Positions 1-28,348 of a stretch of 28,348 bases of DNA are shown one piece after another. How positions within the stretch are numbered: position 1 is the first letter of the stretch; the number at the start of each line of letters is the position of its first letter. Origin of the DNA: a virus; IMG/VR virus record IMGVR_UViG_3300045945_000356, positions 1-28,348 of that record; one strand, given 5' to 3'. Position numbers and translations under genes: made by a program. The notes beneath the pieces are model-generated. The model was given only the letters and a program-made list of their open reading frames with translations, did not search any database and was not told the DNA's origin.

Positions 1-1060
1 TGATAGACGCAAGCATGCCAAGACGCCTCACGAGATCATGCACCTGATAGGCGAGAGTCTTCGAGACCGTTGTAAGGACTTCTCCAGGTTTGTCGCCGTG
101 ATAATCATGCCCATCGCCATCATAGAGCCCACGAAGAAGCGCTCGGGCCTCAGCGTCTCCAAGTGTTTCGAGCCAGGAGGGTGGCAGGTGTTTGGTGTGA
201 GCATGCGAGCCAAAGAGGTGGGCAAACAGCATAACGAGTGGCTTTGAAGCCACGATGACCTGGGCAGAGTGACCAGCGACATACTCATAGAGACTGCTGT
301 TAAGTCCAAAAACCTCAGCGATAGTCTGTCTGACCTCCTCCTGATACCTCCGCTCGTTGAGATGGAATGACCAGCCAAGTTGTCCCTGATGTGACGCCGC
401 ATGCCCTTCTGCCAGATAGAGACCAATGAGACGAGCAACTTGCTCTGTGACAGCGACCGTGGCTGGAACAGGAATAGCACGATTCCCTCGTGCGCGCACC
501 TGGTGGTCTCCTACTGGGAGCAAGTCGGGAAGACTGCGGAAGTCTAGCATGAGACGGGCCGCCGTCGCAGGGATAGTCGGGCTATAAATATCCCATCCAC
601 GCTGGATGTCTTCGGCGTCGATCCACCCTACAGGCATAGAAGAGTAGGCATTATTGAGATACCGTACGTTTCGTGACACTGTGGCTTCGCTGACGCCAAA
701 GCGAGTAGCAATCTCTTTCAGTAACAAGCCTTCTTCGTACAATGCACGCATCTGTGCGGCGCGAACAAAGCGCTGCTCTTGGACTCTTCCTCCATGTTTC
801 CAGCGCTGCCTCTCTCCCTCGCTGTAGTAGATGACTGGACGCTGACGGGTATAGACAGGATGTCCATACGTCACCCATGGCCCTTGATTTGCTCGTCCAA
901 ACGCCCGTAGTTGGACGAGTGGGCCAGCATAGTCGCGCACGAGAACGTCCGTTACTCGCTGCCAGCGCCCATGGTGCGTAAGAACTTCATCTCCCCTAAC
1001 GACCTCACAGATGGGGATATAGCCACGCCTGGTTGTTACGGTTTGATCAGGCTTAAGACA
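1..1060 (-). mobile_element. Intein with helix-turn-helix and two-motif LAGLIDADG endonuclease (C-terminus outside window)
   Basis: Numbering follows the precursor starting at 1555. Block A starts at Cys166 (CLKPDQTVTTRRGYIPI, then GDEVL), the usual intein N-terminus. Block B is PWVTYGHPVY with the TxxH pair Thr229/His232. Residues about 268-296 form a helix-turn-helix (LKEIATRFGVSEATVSR) between the splicing and endonuclease parts. Two LAGLIDADG-type motifs follow: RLIGLYLAEG (about 375-384) and LLRGLYDGDG (about 473-482). Both keep an acidic residue (E383, D481), as expected of an active single-chain homing endonuclease. At least 353 intein residues are in the window; the C-terminal splice motif (HN and the +1 residue) is not. 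Insertion in an IS110-like HhH protein is unusual, as most inteins sit in replication or packaging ATPases. Confidence 0.9.
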
Positions 1061-1555
1061 GAAGCAATCACCCAATTTCCACGACAAGACCTTCAAGGCC
1101 GCATTCCATGGTCTTTTTTGCCCCTTGGCCCACTTGACGGTTGGGTCGAGTCCCGCATAGCGCCATATAGCACTAGGCGTTTTGGCGATATGGATGTCGA
1201 TGTGCGCCGCAAAGCCCGCCGTGAGTACGGGGCCAATCCCGTGCTGCCGCTTCGCCCACGCCGTCACCGGGCGCTGGTCGGTGGCCTTGTTGAGGGCGCT
1301 GACGATTGTGCGCTCTAACTTCATGAGATACGCCGCCAGCATGGTGATAAAGGCGTTGGGTTCTTCCCTGGCAGAGCGGAGCTGGTTGGCGGCAGACTTG
1401 CGTGACTCCTGCACCTGGTAGTACATATCCACCAGGAAGCGCTGCTGGAGGGGGGTCAAGTTCCCGGCCGCGATGGCGAGATCACGATCCAGGCGTAAGG
1501 TCAGATCAAAGTCGATGTACTCCTCGGGAACCAGGGCAATGTCTGGGACGGGCAT
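1..1555 (-). CDS. IS110/IS116-type helix-hairpin-helix phage protein interrupted by an intein (3' end outside window)
   Basis: The frame is open from an ATG at 1555 to the left edge: 518 codons with no stop. AGAAGGAG lies seven bases before the ATG. Residues 1-165 are the N-terminal extein. Residues about 106-145 (HGIGPVLTAGFAAHI, then SAIWRYAGLDP and KGQKRPWN) resemble the helix-hairpin-helix region at the C-terminal end of IS110/IS116 transposases. No DEDD/RuvC-like catalytic domain is visible in the first 100 residues, so I do not call it a transposase. Similar stand-alone proteins occur in phages; their role is unknown to me. From Cys166 the frame becomes an intein (separate entry). The C-terminal extein should lie beyond base 1. 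The gene follows recT on the same strand, after the box array that fills its leader. The frame and intein are clear from the sequence; the function is not. Confidence 0.85.
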   Translation of the reverse strand, partial: MPVPDIALVPEEYIDFDLTLRLDRDLAIAAGNLTPLQQRFLVDMYYQVQESRKSAANQLRSAREEPNAFITMLAAYLMKLERTIVSALNKATDQRPVTAWAKRQHGIGPVLTAGFAAHIDIHIAKTPSAIWRYAGLDPTVKWAKGQKRPWNAALKVLSWKLGDCFCLKPDQTVTTRRGYIPICEVVRGDEVLTHHGRWQRVTDVLVRDYAGPLVQLRAFGRANQGPWVTYGHPVYTRQRPVIYYSEGERQRWKHGGRVQEQRFVRAAQMRALYEEGLLLKEIATRFGVSEATVSRNVRYLNNAYSSMPVGWIDAEDIQRGWDIYSPTIPATAARLMLDFRSLPDLLPVGDHQVRARGNRAIPVPATVAVTEQVARLIGLYLAEGHAASHQGQLGWSFHLNERRYQEEVRQTIAEVFGLNSSLYEYVAGHSAQVIVASKPLVMLFAHLFGSHAHTKHLPPSWLETLGDAEARALLRGLYDGDGHDYHGDKPGEVLTTVSKTLAYQVHDLVRRLGMLASI

Positions 1556-1603
1556 AGGATGCTCCTTCTGGGCGCTCATGGACAGCGGGATTCTCGCGTC
1601 CAG

Positions 1604-2017
1604 CGGCTGCGCTCTTTTCACGGGATGCTCATTCGATACGGCTCCGCTCCGTCACATCGGGGTTCTCGGGGCTTTCGGCTCCGCTCCTCTCCTCTCGGGA
1701 TACTCTTGTCATTCGGCTGCGCTCGTATCTATTGGGGTTTCTCTACCATTGCGGCTGCGCTATCCTCTTTCGTGGTCCTCGTATATCCCGGCTGCGCTCG
1801 GTACGTCGGGATTGTCTTCTCAGCGGCTGCGCTCCAGGATTCCGGGGGTCTCTCCCTTTGCGGCTGCGCTCATTTCCCGCGGGATCCTCCCTTCAAACGG
1901 CTGCGCTCTCTTGTCCGTGGTCCTCCATGACACGGCTGCGCTCCTGTGCTTCGGGGTCCTCTGGATAGCCGGCTGCGCTCGCCATTGCCGGGATCCTCTG
2001 GGTAAGGGGCTGCGCTC
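1604..2017. repeat. Array of 12 regularly spaced 11-bp boxes alternating with a second box
   Basis: The plus strand carries box A (CGGCTGCGCTC; variants CGGCTCCGCTC at 1639 and 1676, CGGCTGCGCTA at 1752, GGGCTGCGCTC at 2007). Box A starts at 1604, 1639, 1676, 1714, 1752, 1789, 1824, 1861, 1898, 1933, 1970 and 2007, so the steps are 35-38 bp. Between neighbours lies box B (consensus CGGGRTNCTC) at 1621, 1658, 1696, 1733, 1771, 1807, 1843, 1880, 1916, 1952 and 1989, always 17-20 bp after box A. A decayed box A follows at 2044. Step lengths are not multiples of three, so the array is not a coding repeat. Sequence between boxes is not conserved. It fills the gap between recT and the gene starting at 1555. 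Possible roles are replication iterons, partition sites or regulator sites. Confidence 0.9.
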
Positions 2018-2134
2018 GATTCACACGTTGCAATCACTTGTAACGGCTGTTCTGTCTCTCTGTGTAACATAAGCACACCTCTCTTGCAAGGAGGAAGTGA
2101 CCGCACAGGCGTGGCCCCACGGTCACTGCCAGAC

Positions 2135-3199
2135 TCAGGCGTTCTGGGAGGCCAGTTCCTCATCCATCCGGGCGGATTCGGAGGGATCAAACGGCAGGGG
2201 CGGCTCACCCCCTGCCCTCTGTGGGGGGGCTGGGGGTGTCGCCGAAGGAGCGCTGGGGGCCACCCTGGCTTTCGCAGCTCTCTGAGCTCGCTGAGGCGCA
2301 GGGGTCTGGCGCTCCTCCTCAAGGTGCGACTCGAGGGTAGCATGGTCGCCGGCGAGGTCGGAGACCAGATCGGCCAGGAGGTCCTCACTGGGGGCACTCA
2401 AGGGCGGCGGGGTGCGGGTGCCAGTCTCCCGGTCGTAGCCCTGGTGCACCGCGGCCGGCTGTCTCAGGATGGCTTCTTCACCTTCCAGGGCCTGGGTAAT
2501 TTCCGCCGAGATGGAGAGCTTCCGTGGGGAGCACAACTCTCTCAGGCAGGTCTTCATCGCCATCTTGTCAAAGTTGGTGAGACCTTCCAGGTCAGGGCGG
2601 TTATCGGCCCAGAATTTCCCCTGTGCTGCTGCAGAGTAGCGCTGTCTGTGGCCATCGACTTCCGCTTTGGAGAGCACCACGACGCGCCAGTTCCCCGAGC
2701 GCAGGAGGGCTGCAGCGTAATAGCCCACGGCACGGCCCCTGGGGGTAAACGTGCCATCGTTTTGCGGCGGTGGAAGCTGGTGGTAGGGCAGCACGATCGG
2801 GGTTTCTGCCTGCCGGAAGACGTCGTTTTGGTGCACCGTCTCGGCAAAGACATCGACCACATCTGGCGAGCGCAGGACCAGCTTCCGGAGTCCACCGTAC
2901 CCGTAGATAAGGGTACACTCGGTGCCGTAGGGGACGAGGTACGCTTCAGCCGGGATGGCCGGGTTGAGGTCCAGCGAGGCCAGGCGGACGACCGCGTGGA
3001 TGATGCTTTCTGGCGTGCAGCGCATCAGCGCCGGCGTCTTCCTGGCACAGTTGACGATCTCTACCAGGAGCGCATCGGCTTTGTTGCGATCATCAAAGAT
3101 GGTGCGGAGACTCTCCCGACTATGCATCAGGGTGGTTTCAAAGGGCGTCAGGGTGCTGACACGCTTCCGGGTGTCAGTCGTTTCCAGGGTCGTTTCCAT
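2135..3199 (-). CDS. recT: RecT-family single-strand annealing recombinase
   Basis: 354 residues. RecT proteins bind single-stranded DNA and anneal complementary strands during phage recombination and replication. The family pattern is clear: TPESIIHAVVRLASLDLNPA (about 63-82), AYLVPYG and IYGYGGLRKLVLRS (about 97-112), AVGYYAA, and FDKMAMKTCLRELCSP (about 225-240). The last 90 residues are a Pro/Ala-rich, poorly conserved tail, which makes it longer than many RecT proteins. The ATG at 3199 has GAGGT upstream and lies three bases after the previous gene's stop. No RecE-like or YqaJ-like exonuclease is seen beside it. It probably works with the replication initiator and HNH nuclease upstream in the same operon. 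Confidence 0.93.
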   Translation of the reverse strand: METTLETTDTRKRVSTLTPFETTLMHSRESLRTIFDDRNKADALLVEIVNCARKTPALMRCTPESIIHAVVRLASLDLNPAIPAEAYLVPYGTECTLIYGYGGLRKLVLRSPDVVDVFAETVHQNDVFRQAETPIVLPYHQLPPPQNDGTFTPRGRAVGYYAAALLRSGNWRVVVLSKAEVDGHRQRYSAAAQGKFWADNRPDLEGLTNFDKMAMKTCLRELCSPRKLSISAEITQALEGEEAILRQPAAVHQGYDRETGTRTPPPLSAPSEDLLADLVSDLAGDHATLESHLEEERQTPAPQRAQRAAKARVAPSAPSATPPAPPQRAGGEPPLPFDPSESARMDEELASQNA

Positions 3200-3202
3200 G
3201 GG

Positions 3203-3436
3203 TTACCTCGCTAAGGGGCACGTATGCAGGGGATAGCCCCTGCCCTGGACCACCACATGGTGGCCCGTTTCCGTCTCGCGGCCGGAGATCACCCAGCTCG
3301 CCAGGCTGGTATCGAGTTCGAGTAGCTCTCCTCCGTCGCTCACCACCTCCACCAGGACGTGATCACAGGCCGGGCAGCGCCGATAGAGCCGCGCTGTCTG
3401 CGTGGGGGGTGAGCGTTTCTTCGTGGCCTGGGGCAT
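3203..3436 (-). CDS. Small protein with possible CCHC zinc site
   Basis: 77 residues, not recognised. A CPAC pair (Cys21, Cys24) and a C-terminal His71/Cys73 (HTC) could together hold one zinc ion. The N-terminus is basic and polar, and the middle looks like a small beta-rich domain. Its ATG overlaps the TGA of the preceding gene (ATGA-type overlap at 3434-3438) and its stop lies just before recT, so the three genes look translationally coupled. A role near DNA recombination is inferred only from position. Confidence 0.75.
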   Translation of the reverse strand: MPQATKKRSPPTQTARLYRRCPACDHVLVEVVSDGGELLELDTSLASWVISGRETETGHHVVVQGRGYPLHTCPLAR

Positions 3437-3990
3437 CAGTCATCCTCCTCTTCAGGGGTATAGTCGTCTGCCAGGACTCCGACCATCTCATCGAGCGCCT
3501 TGTGCCAGTCCTCGAGGGAGGCTGGCTCGGGGATGTCCGTCTGCGGCTCCGGCGTGGGCGGCGGTGCTGGCGCAGGCGGTGGCTCTGGGACTGGCGGTGG
3601 CGGGGGTGGCGCGGCACCACGGGCCGCACGGAACTGGGCGTGCACCTTCCTTCTGGCAACGTGCCACGGCATGGGAGCACCCGTCTCCTCATCCGGGATG
3701 CCGCTATAGGAGAGCACCTGATCTTTCACCCATGCCACGCGGTCGGCGACGTAGCCCTGAATGCGGCTCTCAGGGAGCACCGTGCCAGCGCGGAAGGCGT
3801 CCCACAGATGGGCTTCGATCGCCTCGAACGTATGGTCCATGGCGAGGTCGATCAAGTGCGTGTAGCGGATCTGCGGGTCCGCATCCAGGCACAGGGTACA
3901 GCGCCAGGAGGGGGGCTTCTTCGGGGCTTTGACGTCCTCAGTCTCGGTATCGTCGTATCTGCTGCGTCCCACTGGTATACCTCCGGTCAT
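3436..3990 (-). CDS. Unknown protein with proline-rich linker and acidic tail
   Basis: 184 residues from the ATG at 3990, chosen because AAGGA lies just upstream; a longer frame reaches 4065 but has no comparable site. A WRCTLC pair occurs near residues 29-34. Residues 40-120 look helical. Residues about 127-155 are almost all Pro, Ala and Glu, and the C-terminus is acidic (YTPEEEDD). It overlaps the 3' end of the replication initiator gene by 53 bp and its stop overlaps the start of the next gene. The linker followed by an acidic tail resembles proteins that contact single-strand-binding or helicase partners, but that is inference. Confidence 0.7.
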   Translation of the reverse strand: MTGGIPVGRSRYDDTETEDVKAPKKPPSWRCTLCLDADPQIRYTHLIDLAMDHTFEAIEAHLWDAFRAGTVLPESRIQGYVADRVAWVKDQVLSYSGIPDEETGAPMPWHVARRKVHAQFRAARGAAPPPPPPVPEPPPAPAPPPTPEPQTDIPEPASLEDWHKALDEMVGVLADDYTPEEEDD

Positions 3991-4843
3991 GTTCCTTGCC
4001 GTTATTAAGCCATCGTCTGACAAAACCTTTCCAGTTCTTTGAGGGTTCCTTGTGCGGACGTTCAATGAAATAGGTGGTCATGGCGCTGAACTGCCCACGT
4101 AGCCAGTCAGCGTTGAAATAGGTTTTGAGTTGCCTGGAGACTTCAATCCACCAGGTGGCATCGTTCATCGCCTGAAAGGGAATGACGTCGTTATATTCGA
4201 GGAGCACAGCGCGGAGCCAATCATCCTCTGCGAGCGGCGTGACCGGTTTTTTCCTGGGGGTTTTCTTTACCGCGATATGTCCATTACTCTGCACAGTGGT
4301 TATTAGTTGGGACGATGTGATCGTTGCGCGATCATCACCGTCCATACTCACGAACGTAGTGAGTGAGTGTTCTAGATCTCTGGAGTTATTCTCTGAAAAG
4401 AGATGGGAGCAATCTGAGCCATCGATGGGGTCAATGTGAGCCGTCGATGGGGTCAAGTTGACACGATCGATGGGATCACCCACTTCTGGAGTGATCAAGT
4501 TATTGAGTTGCTTATAGTTAATGGCGTACCACTTGGTTTTATCCATGGCGCTGTGGTTGTAATTTGCGGTCAGCACCAGATCTTTCTTCTGCAGGGAGAG
4601 GATGGTGCGTTTGATTGTCGAAATGGACCAGAAGGGAAACTGGGTATGCCAGTCCTCGTAGGTGTTGTAAATCCACGTTCTGTCATCACGTTCATGCCCG
4701 TTGCGCCTAAGCCAGTAGTGAAGCTGCTGTAAGACAATCGCTTCGTTGAGGTCGCCCAACGCCACTGCCAAGCTCGGCAAGACTTGGAGCGGTTCTTCAT
4801 GAATGAGGAGCTTGCTTGTTCCAGGATCGTTGGGCGCCTGCAT
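3938..4843 (-). CDS. Phage replication initiator (winged-helix, DnaD/O-like)
   Basis: 301 residues from the ATG at 4843, which has a perfect AGGAGG eight bases upstream; the longer frame to 4888 lacks this. The N-terminal block LLIHEEPLQVLPSLAVAL, then NEAIVLQQLHYWL, WIYNTYEDWHTQFPFW, STIKRTILSLQKKDLV and DKTKWYAINY, is the characteristic winged-helix domain of replication proteins from phages of Gram-positive hosts. These bind the origin and recruit the host helicase. A variable linker (about 110-220) leads to a C-terminal helical domain ending in NWKGFVRRWLNNGK, as in DnaD/DnaB-like loaders. It is second in the operon after the HNH gene. No helicase or polymerase is in the window, so it probably relies on the host. 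Confidence 0.85.
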   Translation of the reverse strand: MQAPNDPGTSKLLIHEEPLQVLPSLAVALGDLNEAIVLQQLHYWLRRNGHERDDRTWIYNTYEDWHTQFPFWSISTIKRTILSLQKKDLVLTANYNHSAMDKTKWYAINYKQLNNLITPEVGDPIDRVNLTPSTAHIDPIDGSDCSHLFSENNSRDLEHSLTTFVSMDGDDRATITSSQLITTVQSNGHIAVKKTPRKKPVTPLAEDDWLRAVLLEYNDVIPFQAMNDATWWIEVSRQLKTYFNADWLRGQFSAMTTYFIERPHKEPSKNWKGFVRRWLNNGKEHDRRYTSGTQQIRRYRD

Positions 4844-4884
4844 AGGATATCCTCCTTTCTTAGAGCAGAGCATGACCTTTATGC

Positions 4885-5400
4885 TCATGGCTTTCTCCAG
4901 TGCCTTGGTGCAAACATTTTACCTTGTTCAAACTTGACTGGATGACGTTCCTTGAGATCATCAAAATATCTTTCCAGAAGTTCATCCATAATCTCTTTCT
5001 CTCCAAGAGCCCATGCAAGCATATCGACCATTACATCGACCATATGCACCTGTTCCCAATACATGAATCCACTGACTAATCTCAGTAGATGATGCGAAAA
5101 TAATTCACAATCATAGAGAGAACGCAATAACCACTCTTCGGCTTCTCTTCGTGCGTTTGTCTCTTTCTCATGACATGTGGCACAGAGAGTCACTAAAGCT
5201 ACATCCATATACTCCCAGGGCTCGGTCTCTTGTTCATAGTAGCGATGGTGGACATGAAGCGTTTCTCCATCGTTGAAGCAGATCTGGCAGCGCCACTGAT
5301 CGCGCTCCATGATTTCCAGCCGCCGGCGTTGCCAGCGTGGGTCGCGCAGTTTCTGCTGATACTCGCTTACCGGGGGGCGCTCTCTCCGTTTGTCTGCCAT
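4885..5400 (-). CDS. HNH endonuclease
   Basis: 171 residues from the ATG at 5400, with GGAGGAG just upstream; an in-frame ATG at 5433 has no such site. The HNH fold is visible: a basic lead-in RWQRRRLEIMERDQWRCQIC (zinc Cys38, Cys41), the HVHH core (His51, His52) and TLCATCHE (Cys73, Cys76, His77). The following 90 residues are helical and not recognised. It is the first gene of the leftward operon, directly under the divergent promoter at 5469-5496. HNH enzymes cut DNA in phage recombination, replication or packaging. Its distance from the terminase and its place beside recT favour a recombination or replication role. Confidence 0.87.
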   Translation of the reverse strand: MADKRRERPPVSEYQQKLRDPRWQRRRLEIMERDQWRCQICFNDGETLHVHHRYYEQETEPWEYMDVALVTLCATCHEKETNARREAEEWLLRSLYDCELFSHHLLRLVSGFMYWEQVHMVDVMVDMLAWALGEKEIMDELLERYFDDLKERHPVKFEQGKMFAPRHWRKP

Positions 5401-5456
5401 GATCTCCTCCAAAAAAATGTTCTTCTGTAGCACACATGGTGGAAAGTATGGTAAAG

Positions 5457-5497: not shown

Positions 5498-5539
5498 TAT
5501 TATTTCTTGTGTTCTACATTGGGGAAAGGAGGAGCATGG

Positions 5540-19264: not shown

Positions 19265-20073
19265 GTACGAACATGCCCCTGGTGCCGTGGCAGTGTCCGC
19301 ATTGTCGGGCGGTGTGGCATTCGGGGAGGCAAGAGTGTGGGGATTGTGGGTACGGGACGGCGTCGTTTTCAGGCTTACAAGGCGGGGGGCTGCCGCCACA
19401 GGGCGTGCAGCCGGTGCAGCAGCCGGTCCTGGGGGTGGAGTGGCAGGTCCCGGTGCCGGAGCGGGCCATCCCTCCAGAGGCCGCAGTGAACGGGTTTGGT
19501 GCAGACCCGCACGGGGGGACGGACGGGGCGCTCAGGCGGGCGCTCGCGGCGGAATCGGCCTTGCAGGCGGAGGTGGGTCCGCTGAGAGACAGGCTCGCGC
19601 AGATGGAGCGTACACTTCAGGCGGAGCGGGAGCAGGTAACGAAGGCGGTTTCGGAGATGCTGACACCCCTCCACACCTGTCTTACGTCGTGCGGGGTGAA
19701 GGTGGAGCAGGTGGCGCAGCTTGTTCCGGCCGCAGTCGAGCTGGTTCAAGCCTTGCGTAGCGAGGTGCAGCGTCTCCGGCAGGGGGTGAGGGAGCCGGGC
19801 GGGGGCGCCCCCATCTCCATGCCGCCTACGCAGGCGCTGGTGCAACTGACCGATGCGATTGCCGCCCTGCATCTGCAGGTGCAGGATATGGCCAGGTGGC
19901 AGGCCCAGCACCAGAAGCAGCTCGCGGAACAGATGCAGGCGGTGCCCAAGGAGGTGTTTCCCTCGTCGCCTGCGGCAGGCACAACCTGGATTGTGACGGA
20001 TGAGATGGCGAAAACCGTGGAAGACGCCATACGCCGCTCGCAGCAGGCGACAGGGAACCCGTATGCTGGCTGA
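19261..20073 (+). CDS. Zinc-ribbon plus coiled-coil protein
   Basis: 270 residues, with GAGGAGGAAGG directly upstream. WQCPHCRAVW and QECGDCGYG form a four-Cys zinc ribbon in the first 32 residues. A Gln/Pro/Gly linker leads to a long coiled coil (about 88-135: LRRALAAESALQAEVGPLRD) and more helix to the end. It overlaps the terL start by 11 bp. The form suggests a scaffold or adaptor; a role in packaging is possible from position. Confidence 0.7.
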   Translation: MSTNMPLVPWQCPHCRAVWHSGRQECGDCGYGTASFSGLQGGGLPPQGVQPVQQPVLGVEWQVPVPERAIPPEAAVNGFGADPHGGTDGALRRALAAESALQAEVGPLRDRLAQMERTLQAEREQVTKAVSEMLTPLHTCLTSCGVKVEQVAQLVPAAVELVQALRSEVQRLRQGVREPGGGAPISMPPTQALVQLTDAIAALHLQVQDMARWQAQHQKQLAEQMQAVPKEVFPSSPAAGTTWIVTDEMAKTVEDAIRRSQQATGNPYAG

Positions 20074-22567
20074 GGCGCAGGAGCCACTCAGGCGCTCGAC
20101 GCTCTATCGGCGTTTAATGGAGCGGCTGCCGGTGAGAACGCCGGAGCGCTCCATTGTGCCCTTGCGCTTTAACGCGGCGCAGGAGCAGCTCTGGCAGGTC
20201 GTGGCCCCACGGATTGATGCCAACCTCCCCATCCAGATGATTATCTTAAAAGCCCGCCGGGAAGGCGTCTCTACCTTTACCGAAGCGCTCTTAACTGCCA
20301 TATGTGTCTTTCAAGACTATACGCAGGCGCTGGTCGTGGCGCACTTAAAACAGCCAGCCGAGCGCATCTGGCAGATGAGCGAGCGCTTTGTGCGCTCTTC
20401 GCCCTTAGAAGGTGTCGCAGACATTAAGCGCCGGGCGATTAGCTTCAGGCACTCGACCCTGGAGCTGGCGACCGCGGGGACGCCGGAAGCGGCGAGGAGC
20501 GCAGACCTCACCTGTTTGCACGCCTCGGAGCTGGCCTTCTGGAAGCAGGCCTCCGCGCTCCTCGCCATCCGGCAGTGTTTGCCGCAAGACGAAGAGAGCT
20601 TTTTTCTGGAAGTGGATGAGTCGACCGCCAACGGCATCGTCGATACCGGGGCCATGTTTCACGACGAGTGGATGGCCGCGGTGGCGGGGGATTCCTCGTT
20701 TCTGCCCGTCTTTCTCCCCTGGCACACCTTTCCGCAGTATACCTCCAGGCTCCTCGCTCCCTTAGACGATCTCGACAGCGATGAAGAAGCGCTCATGGCC
20801 GATCTTGCCCTCACCTGGGGGCAAATCCGCTGGCGCCGCCGGGTCATTGCCGACCGCTGCCAGGGCGATATTGAGAAGTTTAATCAGGAGTACCCATCCA
20901 CGCCAGAGATGGCGTTTATTATGTCGGGGCTCCCCTTTTTCAGGCAGGCCGATCTGGTGTGGATTGAGCCGATGATCGAAGTGGGGCGCAGAGGCAGACT
21001 GGTGGAAGCGCGGGGCAGGGTGCGTTTCCTGGACGACGTACGAGGACCACTCCGGGTGTTTCGTCCACCGCTTCCCGGGAGAGAGTATGTGATTGGCGCC
21101 GATAGCTCGATGGGGATTCAGGATCAATCGGGAGAACACTCGCGCTCGGCAGCGGAGGTCTTAGACATGGGGACGCTTGAGCAGGTCGCCGAATACGATG
21201 AAGCCGCGCCGCCGCACGTCTTTGCCAAAGACCTGGCGCTCCTTGGACGCGCCTACAACGACGCGCTCCTGGCGCCAGAGGTGCAGGCCTCAGGCGGCGG
21301 AGGCGGGAGAGAAATCATCGTCTACCTGCGCGATCAGTATGCCTATCCAAACCTGCACCGCTGGACGGCGCCTGACCGGATTAAAGCAGGACAACCTGTT
21401 CTCTATGGATGGGAATGTGTTGACCCCTCGTCCCGCATCCTTACGTCAGATTTACGCTGGACGGAGGCGCATACGCTTGAGGTTGGTGACCAGATACTGG
21501 GCTGCCAGGAGCGCGTCACAGGGGGAAAAGGCAGTGCGATCCATGTACGGATACAGACGATTAAGAGCCGTCAGGTCTTTCCTGCCCCGAGGTGCAAGGT
21601 GGTGCTTGCCAATGGCGAGACGACCTGTGTGAGTACCAACCATCCTTTTTTGGTGTTCAGGCAGAGCCGCAAAGATGTGGGATGGCAGTGGATGGAAGCC
21701 TCACGGCTCAGGCAAGGTGATCTGCTCAGGTATCTGCCGATGTGGGAGAGCCTGCGCACCTATGAAGCCGGAAGACTCTCTGCGTTTCTTGATGGTGAAG
21801 GCCATCTCTCCAGGGGCGGGGATCGTGGCGGCTATCAACTGCTTATAACGCAGGTCGAAGGACTCCTCGCCGATGAGATTGCCGATCTCTGGGGGAAATG
21901 TGGCTTTGACGCCATCTTCAAGTGGATGCGGCATAAAGACCGTCCGCAGGAGCAGACCATACAGACCACCGGCGTGCTGCGTGTGGTGGAAGTGCTGCGC
22001 GCACTCGGTTCACTCCGTCCGACACGGCTTCTCAGGCGCTTTGCGGCGTTTGCCGAGGCTGGATACTTGACCCTCAGGTCGTTTGAGCGTATGCCAGTCG
22101 ACAGCATCATCCCTCTGCCAGATGGCGAGGTGATTGGTCTGACGACTGATCCAGACCATACGCTCATTGCTGATGGCCTGGTCGGCCATAATACCAATGT
22201 GCGCACCCGCCCACGGATGCTGGCCCGCATTCAGGAAGTGATCTTAGAAAAGCGTGTGGCTCTCCACTCCCGGGCTCTGGTGCGCCAGCTCCGGACCTTT
22301 GGGGAATCGGATTCGGGGAAGCTCGAAGCCCTGGCTGGCCACGATGATCTCCTCTTTGCCTTCGGTATTGCGCTCATGTCGCGCTCGGAAAACTACGTGG
22401 TCAAACGTGGCGTCCCTCTCCACGCGGCGCCGGCCTTCCCGTGGGCCCAGGCTGGGCTTGACCACACGCCGGATCCGGAGGATAGGGACCGTACTGTGCT
22501 CTCCGATCTCCTCCTGGCCTACGGCACTCAACCGCTCACCTATCCCACGGAGTTCCTCCAGTGGTAA
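20063..22567 (+). CDS. terL: Terminase large subunit (TerL) precursor with intein
   Basis: 834 residues before splicing, about 575 after. The ATG at 20063 overlaps the previous stop by 11 bp; an in-frame ATG at 20000 lies deep in the previous gene and is rejected. ATPase domain: Walker A-like LKARREGVST (62-71), acidic Walker B region CLHASELAFW (E156), and FNQEYPSTPEMAF (273-285), a signature of packaging ATPases. Nuclease domain: YVIGADSSMG (342-351, D347) and, after splicing, YGWETNVRTRPRM. TerL drives DNA into the prohead and cuts the concatemer. The intein occupies residues 452-710 inside the nuclease domain, so no functional cutting is expected until splicing. Confidence 0.95.
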   Translation: MLAEAQEPLRRSTLYRRLMERLPVRTPERSIVPLRFNAAQEQLWQVVAPRIDANLPIQMIILKARREGVSTFTEALLTAICVFQDYTQALVVAHLKQPAERIWQMSERFVRSSPLEGVADIKRRAISFRHSTLELATAGTPEAARSADLTCLHASELAFWKQASALLAIRQCLPQDEESFFLEVDESTANGIVDTGAMFHDEWMAAVAGDSSFLPVFLPWHTFPQYTSRLLAPLDDLDSDEEALMADLALTWGQIRWRRRVIADRCQGDIEKFNQEYPSTPEMAFIMSGLPFFRQADLVWIEPMIEVGRRGRLVEARGRVRFLDDVRGPLRVFRPPLPGREYVIGADSSMGIQDQSGEHSRSAAEVLDMGTLEQVAEYDEAAPPHVFAKDLALLGRAYNDALLAPEVQASGGGGGREIIVYLRDQYAYPNLHRWTAPDRIKAGQPVLYGWECVDPSSRILTSDLRWTEAHTLEVGDQILGCQERVTGGKGSAIHVRIQTIKSRQVFPAPRCKVVLANGETTCVSTNHPFLVFRQSRKDVGWQWMEASRLRQGDLLRYLPMWESLRTYEAGRLSAFLDGEGHLSRGGDRGGYQLLITQVEGLLADEIADLWGKCGFDAIFKWMRHKDRPQEQTIQTTGVLRVVEVLRALGSLRPTRLLRRFAAFAEAGYLTLRSFERMPVDSIIPLPDGEVIGLTTDPDHTLIADGLVGHNTNVRTRPRMLARIQEVILEKRVALHSRALVRQLRTFGESDSGKLEALAGHDDLLFAFGIALMSRSENYVVKRGVPLHAAPAFPWAQAGLDHTPDPEDRDRTVLSDLLLAYGTQPLTYPTEFLQW
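21416..22192 (+). mobile_element. TerL intein (259 residues) with LAGLIDADG-type motif
   Basis: It begins at Cys452 of the precursor (CVDPSSRILT, then LEVGDQILG, block A). Block B is GETTCVSTNHPFLV (His527); SxxH replaces the usual TxxH. A LAGLIDADG-like motif, RLSAFLDGEGHLS (571-583), is followed by a helical region. Block F is VIGLTTDPDHTLIADG, and block G ends LVGHN with Asn710, followed by +1 Thr. Only one LAGLIDADG motif is obvious, so the endonuclease is either a half-site dimer type or decayed. The flanks join into YGWE/TNVRTR, a conserved terminase segment. Confidence 0.93.
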
Positions 22568-23583: not shown

Positions 23584-23612
23584 GCATGAGTACGGCACTG
23601 GAGCGATTGAAC

Positions 23613-23660: not shown

Positions 23661-23673
23661 TAAGGAGAGACCT

Positions 23674-23913: not shown

Positions 23914-24062
23914 TTTCTGATGCCCAGGCCAAGAAAGATGCCAAAAAAATGACGCGCCTGGGGAAACGCCTGGCGCAGCATGAAGACGACGAGATGGGAC
24001 AGCCAGCCGTGCAGCGTGCCAAAAAGACCCGCACGGCCACACGCGGGAAGCAAAGGAGCTAG
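23910..24062 (+). CDS. Small very basic protein 2 (GTG start)
   Basis: 50 residues from a GTG at 23910, seven bases after AAAGGAG and overlapping the previous TGA. It reads VISDAQAKKDAKKMTRLGKR, then a short acidic patch (QHEDDEMGQP) and a basic end (RAKKTRTATRGKQRS). The end of the gene supplies the ribosome site (AAAGGAG) of the portal gene. It is easy to miss because it is short and begins with GTG. Confidence 0.65.
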   Translation: MISDAQAKKDAKKMTRLGKRLAQHEDDEMGQPAVQRAKKTRTATRGKQRS

Positions 24063-24065
24063 CTC

Positions 24066-25814
24066 GTGGCGACCCAGGTCCTCAGGATGCCCACTACCAA
24101 CGGCACGCACGTTCCCGAACCAGAGACGACGCCAGGCGGCCAAAGGCAAGGCGAGCAGCTCCTGTGCCAATGGGTCCAGGGGTTGTACTTAGATGCACTA
24201 ACAGCGAGAAACAAATGCATTACCCAGACAGAATGGGACGATTGGGCCTCAGGGTACTGGGGTTCGTACTGGCCTGAAGCACTCCCCTCCTATAAGTCTC
24301 CTATGCAGATTAACGAGATGAAGCGCCTCATCCTCTCCGAACTCTCTGACCTGACCGATAATTCCCCCACCGTCTACGTCACCGCCAACCCGCGCACGGC
24401 GGAGCGTGACGACGGGGTGGAGCGTGCCATCCAGGCCTTCTGGCAGCGCTACTTTGTCGACCTCACCATTCTCGATGTGTGCGCTGACGCAGCCATCTGG
24501 CCGTGCGGCTTTTTTGAAGTGCCCTGGGACCCGCTCCTCGCTGGCGGTCAGGGAGAAATTGTGGTAAGGGCCAGGGCGCCGCAGACCGTCTTTCCCGATC
24601 CCTTTGCCACGTCGGATGAGGACTGGCGCTACGTCGTAACGCTCGATGTCATGGATGTCAACGAGGTGCGCCAGAAGTGGCCAGACCATGGGCACCGGGT
24701 GCGCCCTGATGTGGCGCAGCCCCAGGACCTCCAACCCTTTATGACCTCTCCAGGGAGGCCCTCAGGCCTGGGGATTTTGACGCCGCTCTACCCCATCTCC
24801 TCGCCCATCCCCTCAGGCGGCATGGATACGCGGGTGTCGGTCTATTCCCTCAGGTGTAAAGACACCACCCTCGAGGCCTATCCCTACGAGCACTTTAACA
24901 ACGAGGGCATCCGGCAGCTCCGGCGCGGGGTGCGCTACAAATACCCTCAGGGACGCCTGGTCCAGTGCACCGCTGATGTGGTCCTCTATGACGCGCAGAT
25001 GCCCTACGGGGACGGCTTTGATCTCATCCAAACCCTGCTCCAACCTCCAGTCCACCGCTTCTGGCCCAAGCGCTCCCTGGTGGCAGAACTCTTAGAACTT
25101 CAGCGTGCGGCCGATAAGGCTGAATCGCTCACCTTAGAAAACATGCTCCGGCTGCAAAAGGGCCTGGTGCTGGCAGACGCCAATTCCGGGATCGACAGCC
25201 GGACGTTTGCCGACATTCCCGGGCAAGTCATCTTAAAACGCCCGGGCTCGACGGTGGAAATCGTCAGGCCGCCGCCGCTCCCCCCTGATCTTGTCCTTTC
25301 AGGAGCCCGGTACCGCTCGTACATGCGCGAACTTTTGGGCCACCAACCCACCCGGGAAGGTGTGCAGGGGAGAGGCAATGTCTCTGCAGAGCTGACGGAA
25401 ACCGAGATTACCCAGGCCATGGGCTTAACCCGCCTCCGCGCCCGCTACCTCTACAAGGCGGTCTCTCGCCTGGTCTCGAAGGTCCTCGCCCGTATGGGGC
25501 AGTTCTACACCCACACCCGGGTCCTCCCCTATATGCAGGGCCAGCAGTGGAAGCCGGTTATCTGGGAACCCCTCAGGCACTGGGAGGAGTACGCGGCGCA
25601 CGTCGATCCGACGTCGTTTGCCATTCAGTCGAAAACCATGGTCAAGCGTCTGGCGGTCATGCTGGCCCGCATTGGTCGCATGGCATCGGACAAAGATCTC
25701 TATGACATTTTGGAATTTCCTAATGGGGAAACGATCGCGGGCCATAACCAGGAAGCGCTCAGGATGGCAGCGCAAGCCGCCGAAGCCCAGCGCGGAAGCA
25801 GGAGGGGAAGGTGA
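24066..25814 (+). CDS. Portal protein
   Basis: 582 residues from a GTG at 24066 with AAAGGAG eight bases upstream. The portal forms the twelve-subunit ring through which DNA enters and leaves the head. Family features: an N-terminal helical part (SPMQINEMKRLILSELSDLT), wing and beta segments (WPCGFFEVPWDP, then VFPDPFATSDEDWRYVVTLD), the long stem helix region (DKAESLTLENMLRLQKG), GQVILKRPGSTVEIVRPP and a C-terminal helical crown (ALRMAAQAAEAQRGSRRGR). Length and position two genes before the scaffold region fit. The end overlaps the next gene (GTGA). Confidence 0.88.
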   Translation: MATQVLRMPTTNGTHVPEPETTPGGQRQGEQLLCQWVQGLYLDALTARNKCITQTEWDDWASGYWGSYWPEALPSYKSPMQINEMKRLILSELSDLTDNSPTVYVTANPRTAERDDGVERAIQAFWQRYFVDLTILDVCADAAIWPCGFFEVPWDPLLAGGQGEIVVRARAPQTVFPDPFATSDEDWRYVVTLDVMDVNEVRQKWPDHGHRVRPDVAQPQDLQPFMTSPGRPSGLGILTPLYPISSPIPSGGMDTRVSVYSLRCKDTTLEAYPYEHFNNEGIRQLRRGVRYKYPQGRLVQCTADVVLYDAQMPYGDGFDLIQTLLQPPVHRFWPKRSLVAELLELQRAADKAESLTLENMLRLQKGLVLADANSGIDSRTFADIPGQVILKRPGSTVEIVRPPPLPPDLVLSGARYRSYMRELLGHQPTREGVQGRGNVSAELTETEITQAMGLTRLRARYLYKAVSRLVSKVLARMGQFYTHTRVLPYMQGQQWKPVIWEPLRHWEEYAAHVDPTSFAIQSKTMVKRLAVMLARIGRMASDKDLYDILEFPNGETIAGHNQEALRMAAQAAEAQRGSRRGR

Positions 25815-26029
25815 GTAAAGACCCAGAAATTACCAGCATACGGGAAGTACGTGGGAAAGATGGCTCGACCGGCTACCTTGTCGAAGGGGGACAGGGAAGT
25901 GAGGGGGTCTCTTTCCATGTCTCCAAAGAGACTATGCATGCGCTGGAGAAAGAAGGCACACAAACGCTCAAGGATACGCTCAAGCGCCAGATCGAAACGT
26001 CTCTCATAGGTCAGCGCTCGCAGGAGTAG
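25811..26029 (+). CDS. Small hypothetical late protein (GTG start)
   Basis: 72 residues from a GTG at 25811 that overlaps the portal stop, with GGAGGGGAA upstream. ITSIREVRGKDGSTGYLVEG reads as a beta hairpin, and SKETMHALEKEGTQTLKDTL as a helix. Not recognised; coupled to portal. Confidence 0.65.
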   Translation: MSKDPEITSIREVRGKDGSTGYLVEGGQGSEGVSFHVSKETMHALEKEGTQTLKDTLKRQIETSLIGQRSQE

Positions 26030-26035
26030 AGCGCC

Positions 26036-26206
26036 TTATTTCATAGGTACAGGAGCGCGTCCTTCGTGCTCCCGCACTTCTTTGAGGACCTGCTGAAGCA
26101 GCCACTGCGTAAACTTCGTGTTCCTGCTGGTGAGGAGTACAAACAATCTCACCTTTAACTCCCTGGGTATGGTGGCATTGACCTGCACCATATCGCCTCT
26201 TCGCAT
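26036..26206 (-). CDS. Antisense ribbon-helix-helix regulator within the late block
   Basis: 56 residues from the ATG at 26206 (GGAGGGGG upstream). MVQVNATIPRELKVRLFVLL, then NTKFTQWLLQQVLKEVREHE, fits the beta-helix-helix fold of Arc/CopG-type repressors and antitoxins. It is the only leftward gene among the late genes. Upstream are two copies of an 18-bp repeat and TTGACA (26288-26283), so it probably has its own promoter and represses itself. No toxin is adjacent. This is the layout of a moron-type insert. Confidence 0.72.
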   Translation of the reverse strand: MRRGDMVQVNATIPRELKVRLFVLLTSRNTKFTQWLLQQVLKEVREHEGRAPVPMK

Positions 26207-26224
26207 ACCCACCCCCTCCATTTA

Positions 26225-26274
26225 CTAGCTTACTAGTACTTTTTTGCGATTTTGTCCTAGCTTACTAGCACTTT
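26225..26274. promoter_or_regulatory. Two 18-bp direct repeats, probable operators of the antisense regulator
   Basis: CTAGCTTACTAGTACTTT (26225-26242) and CTAGCTTACTAGCACTTT (26257-26274) differ at one base and start 32 bp (about three turns) apart. They lie between the regulator start and a leftward -35 TTGACA (26288-26283). TAGTAA inside the second repeat could be the -10. The stretch is AT-rich, unlike its surroundings. Confidence 0.7.
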
Positions 26275-26456
26275 CTGCATACTGTCAATAGACTGTCAGT
26301 CCCTTGCTGCTCCATACTCCACCTGATGCGTTTCATTACCCCTCACTTTCCCTGGCAAGGAGTGGTCTATGTGTGGACCTGAGAGGTATACACAGAGTCG
26401 TGGCAGACGGATGCGGAAATCGTCGCGTGGTGGTCGGCGCATGTAAGGAGAACGCT

Positions 26457-26660
26457 ATGGCAGACGTGACATTTGTAACACCGCTATGGGAGCCGGGTGT
26501 CCAGCACGCCAAAATCGATTCGTGGACCTGCGGCGAGCCGGCCGATCCTCTGGGGGTGCTTTCTCCCAATGGGACGAGCCAGTGTAAGCCCATGTCCACC
26601 GGGTCGGGCGACATGGTGAACGACTGGAAAGCCACCTTTCCCGATGGAGGAAAGGGGTAA
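26457..26660 (+). CDS. Small hypothetical late protein
   Basis: 67 residues from the ATG at 26457 (AAGGAG upstream); the frame also opens at 26304 without a site. ADVTFVTPLWEPGVQHAKID, then a Gly/Ser/Pro-rich part. Not recognised. Its stop overlaps the next ATG (TAATG). Confidence 0.65.
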   Translation: MADVTFVTPLWEPGVQHAKIDSWTCGEPADPLGVLSPNGTSQCKPMSTGSGDMVNDWKATFPDGGKG

Positions 26661-27103
26661 TGGCAACCCTGCCACCGCTGGCAATGCTGCTGCAACAAGC
26701 CATGGCGCGTGGTCCGGGTGGACCTCCGGGCGCAGGGGCTGGCCCCCTGCCTGGGGGTCCGCCTCCCGGTATGGCGCCCCCCATGGGTCTTCCAGGGATG
26801 ATGCCCCCGCCTCCGCCAACCCCGGATGTGGGGACGATTATTCTGACCCTCTCCCGCATGCCCTCGCCCTATAAAGAAATGGCGGCCTTAAAGATTGCCC
26901 GGGAAGTGATTGGTGTGGCCTTAAACGGCTGCTACCAGCGCTCGCCCCAGGCAGCCAAGGAATGCTCTGCCGCACTCCTGGACGTCGATCAAGCCATGGA
27001 TACCTTAGGCGGCATGCCCGTCGATATGCTCCAGCCTCCCGCGCCAGGGATGCCCACCAGTGGCTTCCCCATGGGTGGTGGCGGCATGGCCATGGCAGCC
27101 TAG
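26660..27103 (+). CDS. Gly/Pro-rich head-region protein
   Basis: 147 residues with GGAGGAAAGG upstream. Residues about 18-55 are almost all Gly, Pro, Ala and Met (GGPPGAGAGPLPGGPPPGMA); the middle is a helical domain (YKEMAALKIAREVIGVALNG, then AAKECSAALLDVDQAMDTL); the tail is again Gly/Met-rich. Low-complexity ends round a helical core suggest a structural or assembly protein. It is coupled to the previous gene and sits two genes before the capsid gene. Confidence 0.68.
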   Translation: MATLPPLAMLLQQAMARGPGGPPGAGAGPLPGGPPPGMAPPMGLPGMMPPPPPTPDVGTIILTLSRMPSPYKEMAALKIAREVIGVALNGCYQRSPQAAKECSAALLDVDQAMDTLGGMPVDMLQPPAPGMPTSGFPMGGGGMAMAA

Positions 27104-27117
27104 AAGGAAGATAATCT

Positions 27118-27888
27118 ATGGCTGATCCAAACTGGAATGATGTAATCCGTGATAGTGCCCGATTCCCAGACACCATGCAGCTCGATCTGGGGAATGGCCA
27201 GGGTGTGGTGCGGCTGGGCGATTTGCGGCAGGCCTTTGTGCCCAAAGCAGAAGTCGACTCCTGGCGCCAGCGGGCCGGGGTCTATGCCGATGAGAAGCGT
27301 GTCCTGGAAGGCCACCTGGCGCAGATGCTTCAGGCTCTGCCGCAGCACCCGCAGCCACAGACGCAGACGCAGCAGCCAGGAGGCAAGCCCCCGATCGATT
27401 ACTCTGGCGATGAACTCTTAAACCCCATCTACCAGCAAAGCGTCGAGGCGATGCGGGTGGCGAGTGAAAACGCCCGGGCCATCGACGAACTGAAAAAGCT
27501 CGCCACGCAGAATGGTCAGATGTGGCAGGCCCTGCCCCAGCTCATCATGCTGGGCCAGATGAAGCAGTCCAACCCGGCCTTGGACCTGGACGCCTTAAAC
27601 CGGTTCCGCCAGGAACATCACATTAACGATCCGGTCTTAGCCTCCCGCGCCATGAACTACGAGGCCGATATGGCGCGGGTCAGAGCAGAAACGGAAGCGG
27701 CAACCCTGGAGCGAGCACGCCAGGAGTTGCAGCTACAGAACCCGCAAGTCCCCTACGCCCCCTACGGTCCGCCGCACACCATGCAGGTGCCAGCACCAGG
27801 CTTTAAAACCATCGACGAAGCCGAAGTCGCGGCACTCCAAGACCAGGATATCCTCAAGATGTTCTATCAGCCTATGGCGGCTGCATAA
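27118..27888 (+). CDS. Scaffold-like protein
   Basis: 256 residues (AGAAGGAAG upstream). It is helical and rich in Gln, Glu and Ala, with coiled-coil stretches (KAEVDSWRQRAGVYADEKRV; MARVRAETEAATLERARQEL) and a Gln/Pro linker (QPQTQTQQPGG). Scaffolding proteins direct capsid assembly, lie directly before the major capsid gene and look like this: low conservation, long helices, no catalytic motif. The call rests on position and composition. Confidence 0.72.
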   Translation: MADPNWNDVIRDSARFPDTMQLDLGNGQGVVRLGDLRQAFVPKAEVDSWRQRAGVYADEKRVLEGHLAQMLQALPQHPQPQTQTQQPGGKPPIDYSGDELLNPIYQQSVEAMRVASENARAIDELKKLATQNGQMWQALPQLIMLGQMKQSNPALDLDALNRFRQEHHINDPVLASRAMNYEADMARVRAETEAATLERARQELQLQNPQVPYAPYGPPHTMQVPAPGFKTIDEAEVAALQDQDILKMFYQPMAAA

Positions 27889-27906
27889 GACTGAAAGGGC
27901 CACACT

Positions 27907-28189
27907 ATGGCAGCAGGGGGTATAGGTAGCCAGCTATCACAACCGCCTATTACACTTGTCAATACGGCTAACGGTGTTACCACTAAGTACTTTCAGCCAC
28001 AACTGGTCGACGCGGTGTTCCGCCCTTCACCGCTGTTATGGAGGTTGACGCGTCTGGGTCGGCGTTTTCATGGTGGGGCAATTGTCTGGACAGTAGTAAA
28101 TCAAGAAGAACTAACTGGTGGGGCTTTTTGGGGTACGCAGATGTTGAGCACTGACGTGACAGACAGTGCTCAACCGGCAGAGTTGCAGT
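27907..28189 (+). CDS. Major capsid protein, exon 1 (gene interrupted by group I intron)
   Basis: 94 complete codons plus one base, with AAAGGG upstream. TTKYFQPQLVDAVFRPSPLL, then WRLTRLGRRFHGGAIVWTVV and NQEELTGGAFWG, fits the N-terminal part of a major capsid protein. Read straight through, a TAA follows at 28189-28191, but this stop is made by the intron: the exon ends with T28189, the first base of the next codon, and the intron begins at 28190. The remaining exon is outside the window. Without splicing only a 94-residue fragment would be made, so capsid production depends on RNA splicing. Confidence 0.82.
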
Positions 28190-28348
28190 AAACACCGCTG
28201 CTGCCTTGCCAGGGAAACCTGGCATGTGAAACCCGGTGAATTCGGGGAAACTCCTACCAGGTCATGCTGGGGACAATCCCGAGCCAAGCCGTCCATGTAA
28301 GCCGTGAGGCCCAGGGGGACGGAAGGCGTACAGACTAGAGGGTGACGA
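28190..28348 (+). ncRNA. Group I self-splicing intron (5' part, continues past window)
   Basis: P1: exon GCAGT (28185-28189) pairs with GCTGC (28197-28201), with the required U-G pair at the splice site. P2: TGCCAGG-GAAA-CCTGGCA (28207-28224) with a GNRA loop. P element AATTCGGGGAAA (28239-28250) and Q element AATCCCGAGCCAAGCC (28275-28290) pair as P4 (TCGGG/CCCGA). P5: CCAG/CTGG (28257-28270). P6: CCGTCC/GGACGG (28289-28294 with 28317-28322), carrying GCC-GTGA-GGC. R element GTACAGACTA (28329-28338), followed by GGGT that can pair with ACCC (28231-28234) as P3. Close to the Azoarcus-type IC3 core. The S element and 3' splice site are outside. Confidence 0.92.

Follow-up and report, generated by a model that had tools for sequence, protein, structure and literature searches.

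Why should a viral record of 28,348 bp (IMGVR_UViG_3300045945_000356, analysed over its entire length and called the window below) both begin and end inside splicing elements, and which genes do these elements interrupt? A preliminary description of the DNA had proposed that one phage carries a group I intron and two inteins, distributed over three genes. All three elements are present and their seams could be located. The whole window recurs with 100% identity in a second record, G001 (IMGVR_UViG_3300045885_000606, 55,792 bp). The match falls into two pieces that wrap round the ends of G001, and 126 bp are repeated near both of these ends (10-135 and 55667-55792), which gives a circle of 55,657 bp. 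G001 completes both genes cut by the window, those for the TasA protein and the major capsid protein (MCP), and thereby supplies the missing 3' ends of the left intein and the intron that the preliminary description had sought. Part of the window sequence is also found unchanged in G002, a fragment of the same phage. A third record, 3300045967_000396 (30,961 bp), carries the same terminase (TerL) intein and capsid intron as the window. The window very probably belongs to an uncultured tailed phage whose genome of 55.7 kb maps as a circle and into which three self-splicing elements of the homing type have moved, each of them placed exactly within a conserved part of a gene (Table 1). No further intein or group I intron was detected in the rest of G001 with RF00028, TIGR01443 and PF14528; TIGR01443 also misses the TerL intein, and a divergent intein elsewhere in G001 could escape it likewise.

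Table 1. Splicing elements, interrupted genes and neighbouring features of the phage
Feature	Position	Strand	Match or remark
TasA intein, N-terminal 353 of 414 aa	1..1060	-	cut by record end, complete in L020
TasA-type TIGR-Tas N-extein, 165 aa, first part of Nop domain	1061..1555	-	NF052498, phrog_4285
TIGR dual-repeat array, 12 units of about 37 nt	1578..2017	-	
RecT-family annealing protein, adjoins TIGR array	2135..3199	-	PF03837, 99.6 bits
TerL N-extein, ATPase domain and first part of nuclease domain	20000..21415	+	
TerL intein, 259 aa, Cys1...His-Asn followed by Thr+1, one LAGLIDADG-like motif	21416..22192	+	
TerL C-extein, end of nuclease domain, GHDD motif, stop codon	22193..22567	+	
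Portal protein (packaging module context)	24066..25814	+	PF16510, phrog_156
MCP exon 1, 94 codons and first base of codon W95	27907..28189	+	phrog_9953
Group I intron, first 159 of 277 nt	28190..28348	+	cut by record end, complete in L003 6284-6560
Second TIGR array, 10 units (by eye, first truncated)	L020 6181 to about 6540		beyond window

The gene at the left end encodes a TIGR-Tas protein of the TasA type and has its own array. TIGR-Tas systems were described in 2025 with the types TasA, TasH and TasR (Faure et al. 2025, PMC12045711, main text); in such systems the protein binds tigRNAs of 36 nt and tandem spacers direct it to DNA. The NCBIfam model NF052498 (cut-off 100) matched the spliced protein with 167.4 bits in one stretch (positions 2-213 of 215) and the precursor containing the intein with 147.6 bits in two stretches, and the match to phrog_4285 likewise ran unbroken across the seam. 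The precursor comprises 713 aa and the spliced form 299 aa (complete copy in L020, 4001-6208). Of two possible starts, the ATG at 1555 is likelier than the GTG at 1621 because the latter falls within the TIGR array. Sequence comparison recovered the solved TasH (E 2.6e-10) and TasR (9mty, E 1.6e-8). The nearest relative in a cultured phage was that of Salicola phage CGphi29, which serves as a TasH example in the main text of PMC12045711. Neither an HNH nor a RuvC nuclease domain, the two that proteins of the TasA type lack, was found in the precursor by Pfam at E ≤ 0.01. A scan of genome contigs with Tas yielded one locus of a Mycobacterium sp., 26% identical. In 396 genomes of the phylum of that Mycobacterium the cut-off for Tas was exceeded twice, by the Mycobacterium itself and by one more genome. 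Both frames are short and uninterrupted. A third genome gave a match that stayed below the cut-off.

Dual-repeat arrays lie on both sides of the tasA gene. TIGR arrays are recognised by two alternating repeats in the range of 8-12 nt with spacers of about 9 nt, up- and/or downstream of the gene. Each unit of the array consists of GAGCGNAGCCG, about 8 nt, GANNNNCCCG and again about 8 nt; the repeats thus measure 11 nt and 10 nt and most spacers 8 nt, and SpTIGR has 16 nt of spacer in total according to the main text of PMC12045711. Exact edge-spacer-loop matches occurred 8 times against 0.00 expected, and the edge repeat with at most one mismatch 17 times against 3.83 expected. A truncated AGCCG opens the downstream array, and behind the array lies an inverted repeat of 12 nt but no T run. 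For 21 units of the TIGR arrays no exact dual-spacer target was present in the phage itself or in four related loci. When one mismatch per spacer was allowed, under an assumed geometry, the phage contained 14 matching places, compared with 4-12 for eight re-pairings; we do not take this slight excess as a signal.

The TasA precursor is divided by an intein of 414 aa (...GDCF|CLKPDQ...AVHN|CK) which begins with CLKPDQTV, ends with AVHN|C and has kept Cys1, the His-Asn pair and Cys+1. The part within the window shows the intein start, an HTH-like stretch and two LAGLIDADG motifs, and the complete copy matched the LAGLIDADG model PF14528 with 49.5 bits (cut-off 22.5). The intein C-terminal model TIGR01443 gave 30.8 bits at residues 580-602 of the precursor (cut-off 15.6), while the N-terminal model TIGR01445 detected nothing in G001 at E ≤ 1, this intein included, and the matches to PF14890 and Hint_2 both remained below their cut-offs. 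Among structures in the PDB it resembled PI-PkoII in the endonuclease part (E 2.5e-8). The insertion point lies inside the Nop domain and precedes a conserved K/R by one residue. Of 54 other Tas-like proteins all except one reach this site, and none of these 53 (35 clusters at 90% identity) contains an intein there; in three of them a short insertion, of 14, 16 or 29 aa, is found two residues past it. Relatives of the intein in viral contigs were limited to the phage itself, and plasmids yielded a single match over the full length, of 22%, from Annamia dubia. The precursor gave five weak matches to phage records, covering 23-58% of the query and never 80%. A natural intein in a TIGR-Tas effector, overlooked in the preliminary description, appears to be the new part of this finding; no report of inteins in Tas was found among open-licence papers, the main text of PMC12045711 and the review PMC12385481 included.

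TasA would accordingly be made as a precursor, encoded between two TIGR arrays, from which the LAGLIDADG intein would remove itself, joining ...GDCF to CKF... and restoring a Nop domain able to hold tigRNAs, which the arrays presumably yield. It is conceivable that the intein acts as a switch, keeping the RNA-guided protein off until a signal such as temperature, redox state or DNA permits splicing. Its site inside the RNA-binding Nop domain, a single residue ahead of the conserved K/R, would suit this role, as would cysteines at both position 1 and position +1, and PMC5050341 takes up the question of regulatory roles for inteins. Homing alone accounts for the position of the intein, however, and we regard the switch as unlikely. 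The wider proposal that the inactive Tas precursor gains RNA-guided DNA binding only on excision of the intein under some condition, and that targeting, packaging and capsid synthesis in this phage all await self-splicing, is one to which we likewise give little credence.

The second intein, of 259 aa, interrupts TerL (...YGWE|CVDPSS...VGHN|TNVRT). All four TerL relatives that reach the site lack it and read YGWET at the seam. Translation of the 855-aa precursor may start at a later ATG, at 20063. The intein went undetected by both terminal models, TIGR01443 and TIGR01445. In all, 125 phage records matched it over at least 80% of its length, and the closest kin among the matches listed were from phages of Mycobacterium and Gordonia, all 15 of them annotated as terminase. 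Over its full length it was 32.6% identical to the intein that Breeniome and similar phages carry in their 'terminase'. The preliminary description had assigned both inteins to the LAGLIDADG type. This holds for TasA, with the score given above, but in TerL the single weak match (13.9 or 18.4 bits) stays below the cut-off of 22.5. Splicing of TerL would proceed by Cys1, Asn and Thr+1 chemistry within the nuclease domain.

The third element is an intron of 277 nt in the capsid gene (...GTTGCAGT|AAACACC...ACTTATG|GGCGTGCG), so that the terminase and capsid genes are indeed among the interrupted ones, as had been proposed. The complete intron (L002, L003) matched the group I model RF00028 with 65.5 bits over all 253 positions (cut-off 50); the copy cut by the window scored 20 bits (E 0.0074), with no match at the gathering score. 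It contains no open reading frame, is preceded by U and ends in G, and in its predicted fold P1 forms with a U.G pair at the splice site. Removal of the intron restores an MCP of 339 aa which is 97% identical to the spliced protein of L006 and matches the major head protein family phrog_9953 (E 9.9e-23). In the capsid pre-mRNA the ribozyme would lie after the first base of W95 and would be removed by guanosine attack after the last U of the exon.

In related lineages the same gene has been entered elsewhere. MCP is uninterrupted in L004 and L005. Three of the five lineages carry insertions, which occupy three different codons in a stretch of about 100 bases; those in the two lineages besides that of the window differ from its intron. 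The insert of L006 and L007 gave no match to RF00028 at E ≤ 10 and looks like a group I intron by anatomy: it is preceded by U and ends in G, a P1 of 7 bp is predicted, the 3' motif GGATAAAGAGCCT is common to it and the intron of the window, and its removal restores MCP exactly. L008 contains a LAGLIDADG-type open reading frame in antisense orientation, and HNH genes adjoin MCP in other lineages. The core of the intron was common to 42 viral contigs, including the phage itself twice and the contig of L008, and among 50,697 phage records no relative of MCP was found at E ≤ 1e-5. The suggestion that the lineage is rich in homing elements is thus borne out, and the uninterrupted alleles that the preliminary description had called for exist for all three sites (Tas 53/53, TerL 4/4, MCP in two lineages).

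Splicing and homing of the three elements are what we infer from their exact empty sites, intact splice residues and family membership. Unspliced TasA, TerL and MCP would presumably be inactive, and from the gene anatomy it follows that packaging and capsid formation would depend on splicing. Could one or more of the elements instead have decayed, leaving a split gene that is dead or whose halves do something else? The single weak LAGLIDADG match of the TerL intein is compatible with decay. Moreover, neither G002 nor the six records G003-G008, which represent other lineages, gave a Tas match, so the lineage may be able to do without Tas; most of these records are fragments. Against this, the 713-aa TasA and 855-aa TerL frames contain neither a stop codon nor a frameshift, Cys1, His-Asn and nucleophilic +1 residues are kept in both inteins, and the intron matches the Rfam model over its whole length. 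Tailed phages cannot do without TerL and MCP, so loss of splicing in these two would be lethal. Decay is thus improbable, and we retain three splicing elements as the preferred reading.

The preliminary description had called the left-hand gene IS110-like with an HhH motif, and a degraded IS110 transposase has to be weighed against TIGR-Tas. The Pfam model PF02371 gave 16.6 bits, below its cut-off of 21.3, phrog_4285 carries the label 'transposase', and the predicted structure of the precursor matched IS110-family recombinases with Z 12.0 and 11.9, tied with the lowest TasH (12.1). The best structure match, however, was TasR (9mty, Z 15.1, model residues 35-678, spanning the intein); unrelated helical proteins reached up to Z 9.4, and the model has a mean pLDDT of 53.9, with a low-confidence intein part whose fold it does not settle. 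The IS110 model gave 15 bits (cut-off 140), on which ground the transposase was rejected, against 167 (cut-off 100) for the Tas model. No RuvC/DEDD domain was found by Pfam, and TIGR arrays flank the gene on both sides. A transposase is therefore very improbable, and the gene is better named as TIGR-Tas. That the insertions are assembly chimeras is scarcely credible: the window does end inside the TasA intein and inside the capsid intron, but the same sequence stands in G001 and partly in G002, from differently numbered metagenomes, and comparison with relatives places the seams exactly, to the base or residue.

A natural intein in a Tas effector suggests that TIGR-Tas systems are themselves targets of homing elements. 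It marks a site in the Nop domain at which splitting and rejoining a Tas protein is perhaps feasible, and it gives a natural setting in which to ask whether RNA-guided targeting is gated by splicing; the main text of PMC12045711 describes the biology of TIGR-Tas as open. The capsid gene of the lineage is a compact case of repeated invasion of one essential gene.

With the TIGR-Tas systems of PMC12045711 the locus shares a Nop-domain protein in a tailed phage and arrays on either side of the gene in which two short repeats alternate and the spacers measure about 8 nt. It differs in that the effector is split by an intein, a word absent from the main text of that paper. The capsid intron resembles the group I introns of RF00028 in its match to the whole model and in the U and G at its 5' and 3' splice sites, and is set apart by its place in a capsid gene and the lack of an open reading frame. 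The TerL intein lies in the nuclease domain and has different flanks from the seven mycobacteriophage terminase intein sites (TerL1 a-e, TerL6-f and Pham3880-g), all of which are in the ATPase domain (PMC5050341); in Cluster J phages the terminase insertion is around residue 104 (PMC3706429). The combination of elements is not unprecedented. Campylobacter phage IBB_35 has an intein and an intron in TerL (PMC3322345), and the sections consulted of PMC3706429, which do not mention TIGR-Tas for LittleE or Cluster J, describe in mycobacteriophage LittleE a TerL intein together with an intron in the major capsid gene, as here. Unlike that of the window, the LittleE capsid intron contains an HNH gene; this gene is transcribed leftwards, comparable to the antisense LAGLIDADG-type reading frame of L008.

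The two inteins and one group I intron that the preliminary description had placed in three phage genes were all located, and their seams were exact when compared with relatives. The 28,348 bp of the window are the entire record, whose left end interrupts a minus-strand gene; its right end interrupts the sequence just beyond codon 94 of a capsid-like gene. The missing ends of the left intein and of the intron, which were to be sought in flanking sequence, are contained in G001 (IMGVR_UViG_3300045885_000606, 55,792 bp), a record that includes the whole window at 100% identity in two pieces wrapping round its ends. Because the same 126 bases occur near both ends, G001 has a circular map of 55,657 bp. 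The final 13.5 kb of the window also recur, unchanged, in a third record (3300045967_000396). The three elements are confined to about half of one phage genome, and model searches of the rest of G001 gave no further group I intron, intein C-terminal block or LAGLIDADG_3 match. Both record ends (1 and 28348) lie inside self-splicing elements; the assembly could have broken there owing to mixed insertion-free alleles in the sample. A free-standing HNH endonuclease gene (4885-5433, minus strand; phrog_119, E 2.1e-14; nothing in Pfam at E<=0.01) adjoins a replication gene.

The first interrupted gene had been described as an IS110-like HhH gene but proved to encode a TIGR-Tas protein, here termed TasA. 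The complete gene comprises 735 aa from a GTG or 713 aa from an ATG, the latter being the likelier start. The unspliced precursor matched the TIGR-Tas model NF052498 in two stretches (147.6 bits, cut-off 100). Without its insert the protein has 299 aa and matched in a single stretch, covering 2-213 of 215 positions with 167.4 bits, whereas the IS110 transposase model scored 15 bits, its cut-off being 140. The match to phrog_4285 (labelled transposase) is likewise continuous across the seam. The best relative among cultured phages is Salicola phage CGphi29, taken as a TasH example in the accessible text of PMC12045711, and the sequence matched solved TasH structures and the TasR structure 9mty. 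An AlphaFold model of the unspliced precursor, computed with 21 Tas relatives, was confident for the initial portion of the Nop domain (residues 31-160, with pLDDT 82-94 in blocks) and poor for the intein. It aligned to 9mty at Z 15.1 and to TasH entries at Z 12.1-14.3, in both cases over ranges spanning both exteins; ISCro4 (Z 12.0) and IS621 (Z 11.9) tied with the lowest TasH entry, and Nop5 reached Z 8.1 where unrelated helical structures reached up to 9.4. Two other Tas proteins came to light: gp42 of Gordonia phage Morrissey (L091 1387-2217, annotated hypothetical; NF052498 207 bits) and L106 in G009, the Mycobacterium genome of locus L104 (244 bits).

The gene is flanked by arrays of units composed of GAGCGNAGCCG, about 8 nt, GANNNNCCCG and about 8 nt. 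The exact edge-spacer-loop pattern occurred 8 times in the window, compared with 0.00 for 100 shuffles; the edge repeat was present 17 times where 3.83 were expected. The truncated first unit of the downstream array overlaps the final codons of the gene. According to the accessible text of PMC12045711, TIGR arrays consist of two alternating repeats of 8-12 nt with spacers of about 9 nt, lie up- and/or downstream and mostly have 5 to 15 units. By their sequence the present arrays fit this definition, sharing the two alternating repeats, the short spacers and the position on both sides of the gene.

Features of the phage and of relatives with the same major capsid protein (MCP); L020 is the locus with the complete TasA gene, L004-L008 are relatives' contigs
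Feature	Location	Strand	Remarks
TIGR array before TasA gene	window 2017 down to 1578	gene's strand	12 units of ~37 nt
TIGR array after TasA gene	from L020 6181	gene's strand	10 units counted by eye, first one truncated
LAGLIDADG-type ORF in L008 insertion	L008 6113-6718	minus, antisense	upstream of ribozyme core
MCP insertion of L006 (and L007)	L006 5735-6496		762 nt in codon F74; sense LAGLIDADG-type ORF
HNH_3 endonuclease gene directly downstream of MCP	L004 7140-7748; L006 7377-8015; L007 7863-8501; L008 7992-8591		

The TasA insert of 414 aa begins with CLKPDQTV and ends with AVHN, followed by Cys. Its C-terminal block model was above cut-off and LAGLIDADG_3 matched with 49.5 bits; PF14890, Hint_2 and all helix-turn-helix matches stayed below their cut-offs, and the model of the intein N-terminus gave no match. 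We compared 55 Tas-like proteins: 51 from viral loci, that of this phage among them, two from cultured phages and two from genome copies. The latter, with frames of 342 and 351 aa, were the two matches above the NF052498 cut-off when 396 genomes from a single phylum were surveyed. Ten of ten tested among the other 50 viral proteins exceeded that cut-off, the remaining 40 resting on a profile built from the same set. Only the protein of this phage is split: all 53 others that reach the site lack an intein (grouped at 90% identity they form 35 clusters, one with 12 members), and the 54th (L127) is cut off before it. In three of the 53 (L115, L130, L132) a short insert, of 16, 29 and 14 aa respectively, lies two residues beyond the site. 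The site mostly reads.SF or.SC, then (V, L, I)(K, R) after the insertion point, with the basic residue one position on. A hypothetical protein of an Annamia dubia plasmid (AP025633.1 26469-27758) aligns to all 414 intein residues at 22% and may represent an intein within a different host protein.

The proposed intein in TerL was borne out as an insert of 259 aa. The window has YGWE, the insert and TNV, and YGWET is unbroken in all four relatives with a TerL match (G003, G006, G007, G008); G004 and G005 had no such match. When a profile was built from the spliced TerL together with three relatives, it matched T4 gp17 (3ezk, E 3e-14), and the seam fell inside the second match, the nuclease. Of the 137 phage records that matched the intein, 120 are of Mycobacterium and 17 of Gordonia phages; in 125 the match covers 80% or more of the intein. 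The best 15 of the 137 belong to Mycobacterium phages, each with the annotation terminase and 32.6% identity. In Breeniome, whose protein we infer to be Pham3880, the intein is flanked by SSPY/C and HN/S, a site other than that of the window.

The group I intron proposed in the capsid gene was found as well. It is 277 nt long and matches the entire Rfam model with 65.5 bits, is preceded by U and ends in G; in the predicted P1, five exon bases are paired with U.G at the splice site. Its removal restores a major head protein of 339 aa (phrog_9953, E 9.9e-23) with 97, 85, 79 and 79% identity to four relatives. It contains no ORF. Its exact 20-base core pattern GGTGAAYTCRGGGAAACTCC was found in 42 viral stretches (L047-L088, this phage counted twice) and perhaps marks a widespread phage intron family.

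A search of the viral collection gave seven contigs with this MCP, two from this phage, representing five lineages altogether. The gene is uninterrupted in L004 and L005. The 883-nt insertion of L008, in codon W61, includes the core of a group I intron, with 50.1 bits at a cut-off of 50, and its antisense ORF matched PF00961 below cut-off (20.7 bits, 23.1) and phrog_5046, labelled HNH endonuclease (E 2.9e-15). L006 and L007 share one sequence at their insertion, whose removal restores the MCP exactly. Rfam did not recognise it, but its P1 has 7 bp and U.G, and its 13-base 3' motif recurs in the window's intron; we take it for a divergent group I intron with an ORF (PF14528 18.6 bits, below 22.5; phrog_5046 E 3.6e-15) that seems to overlap the core. 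In all three cases the insertion point lies between the first base, a T, and the second base of a codon. The HNH_3 gene downstream of MCP, the same ORF in L006 and L007, may be a free-standing homing gene; none follows MCP in L005 or in L003, a contig of the window's phage.

Empty sites in relatives, which the preliminary description had suggested looking for, were found for Tas, TerL and MCP alike, and all three elements are exactly placed, with intact splice residues and family membership. They would splice out of TasA, TerL and MCP, and homing would be driven by encoded endonucleases; the capsid intron would rely on an endonuclease in trans or have lost its own. The unspliced products are probably inactive, given that the Nop domain, the nuclease domain and the capsid reading frame are interrupted.

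An intein in a TIGR-Tas protein was not found in print, in the open-licence literature and in word searches of the accessible text of PMC12045711 and the review PMC12385481, and phages with several elements are already known; the Tas intein is therefore the point of interest. As far as their accessible texts go, PMC11878797 describes two or three introns within one phage gene, and IBB_35 (PMC3322345), whose TerL has both an intein and an intron and which has further inteins elsewhere, resembles this phage in its several self-splicing elements. LittleE (PMC3706429) likewise combines a TerL intein with a spliced capsid intron, the latter with an antisense HNH gene. The accessible part of PMC5050341 lists seven terminase intein sites, five representatives of which, Pham3880-g included, spliced in a reporter. 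Since all seven lie in the ATPase domain, the site in the nuclease domain of the present TerL is new with respect to that survey.
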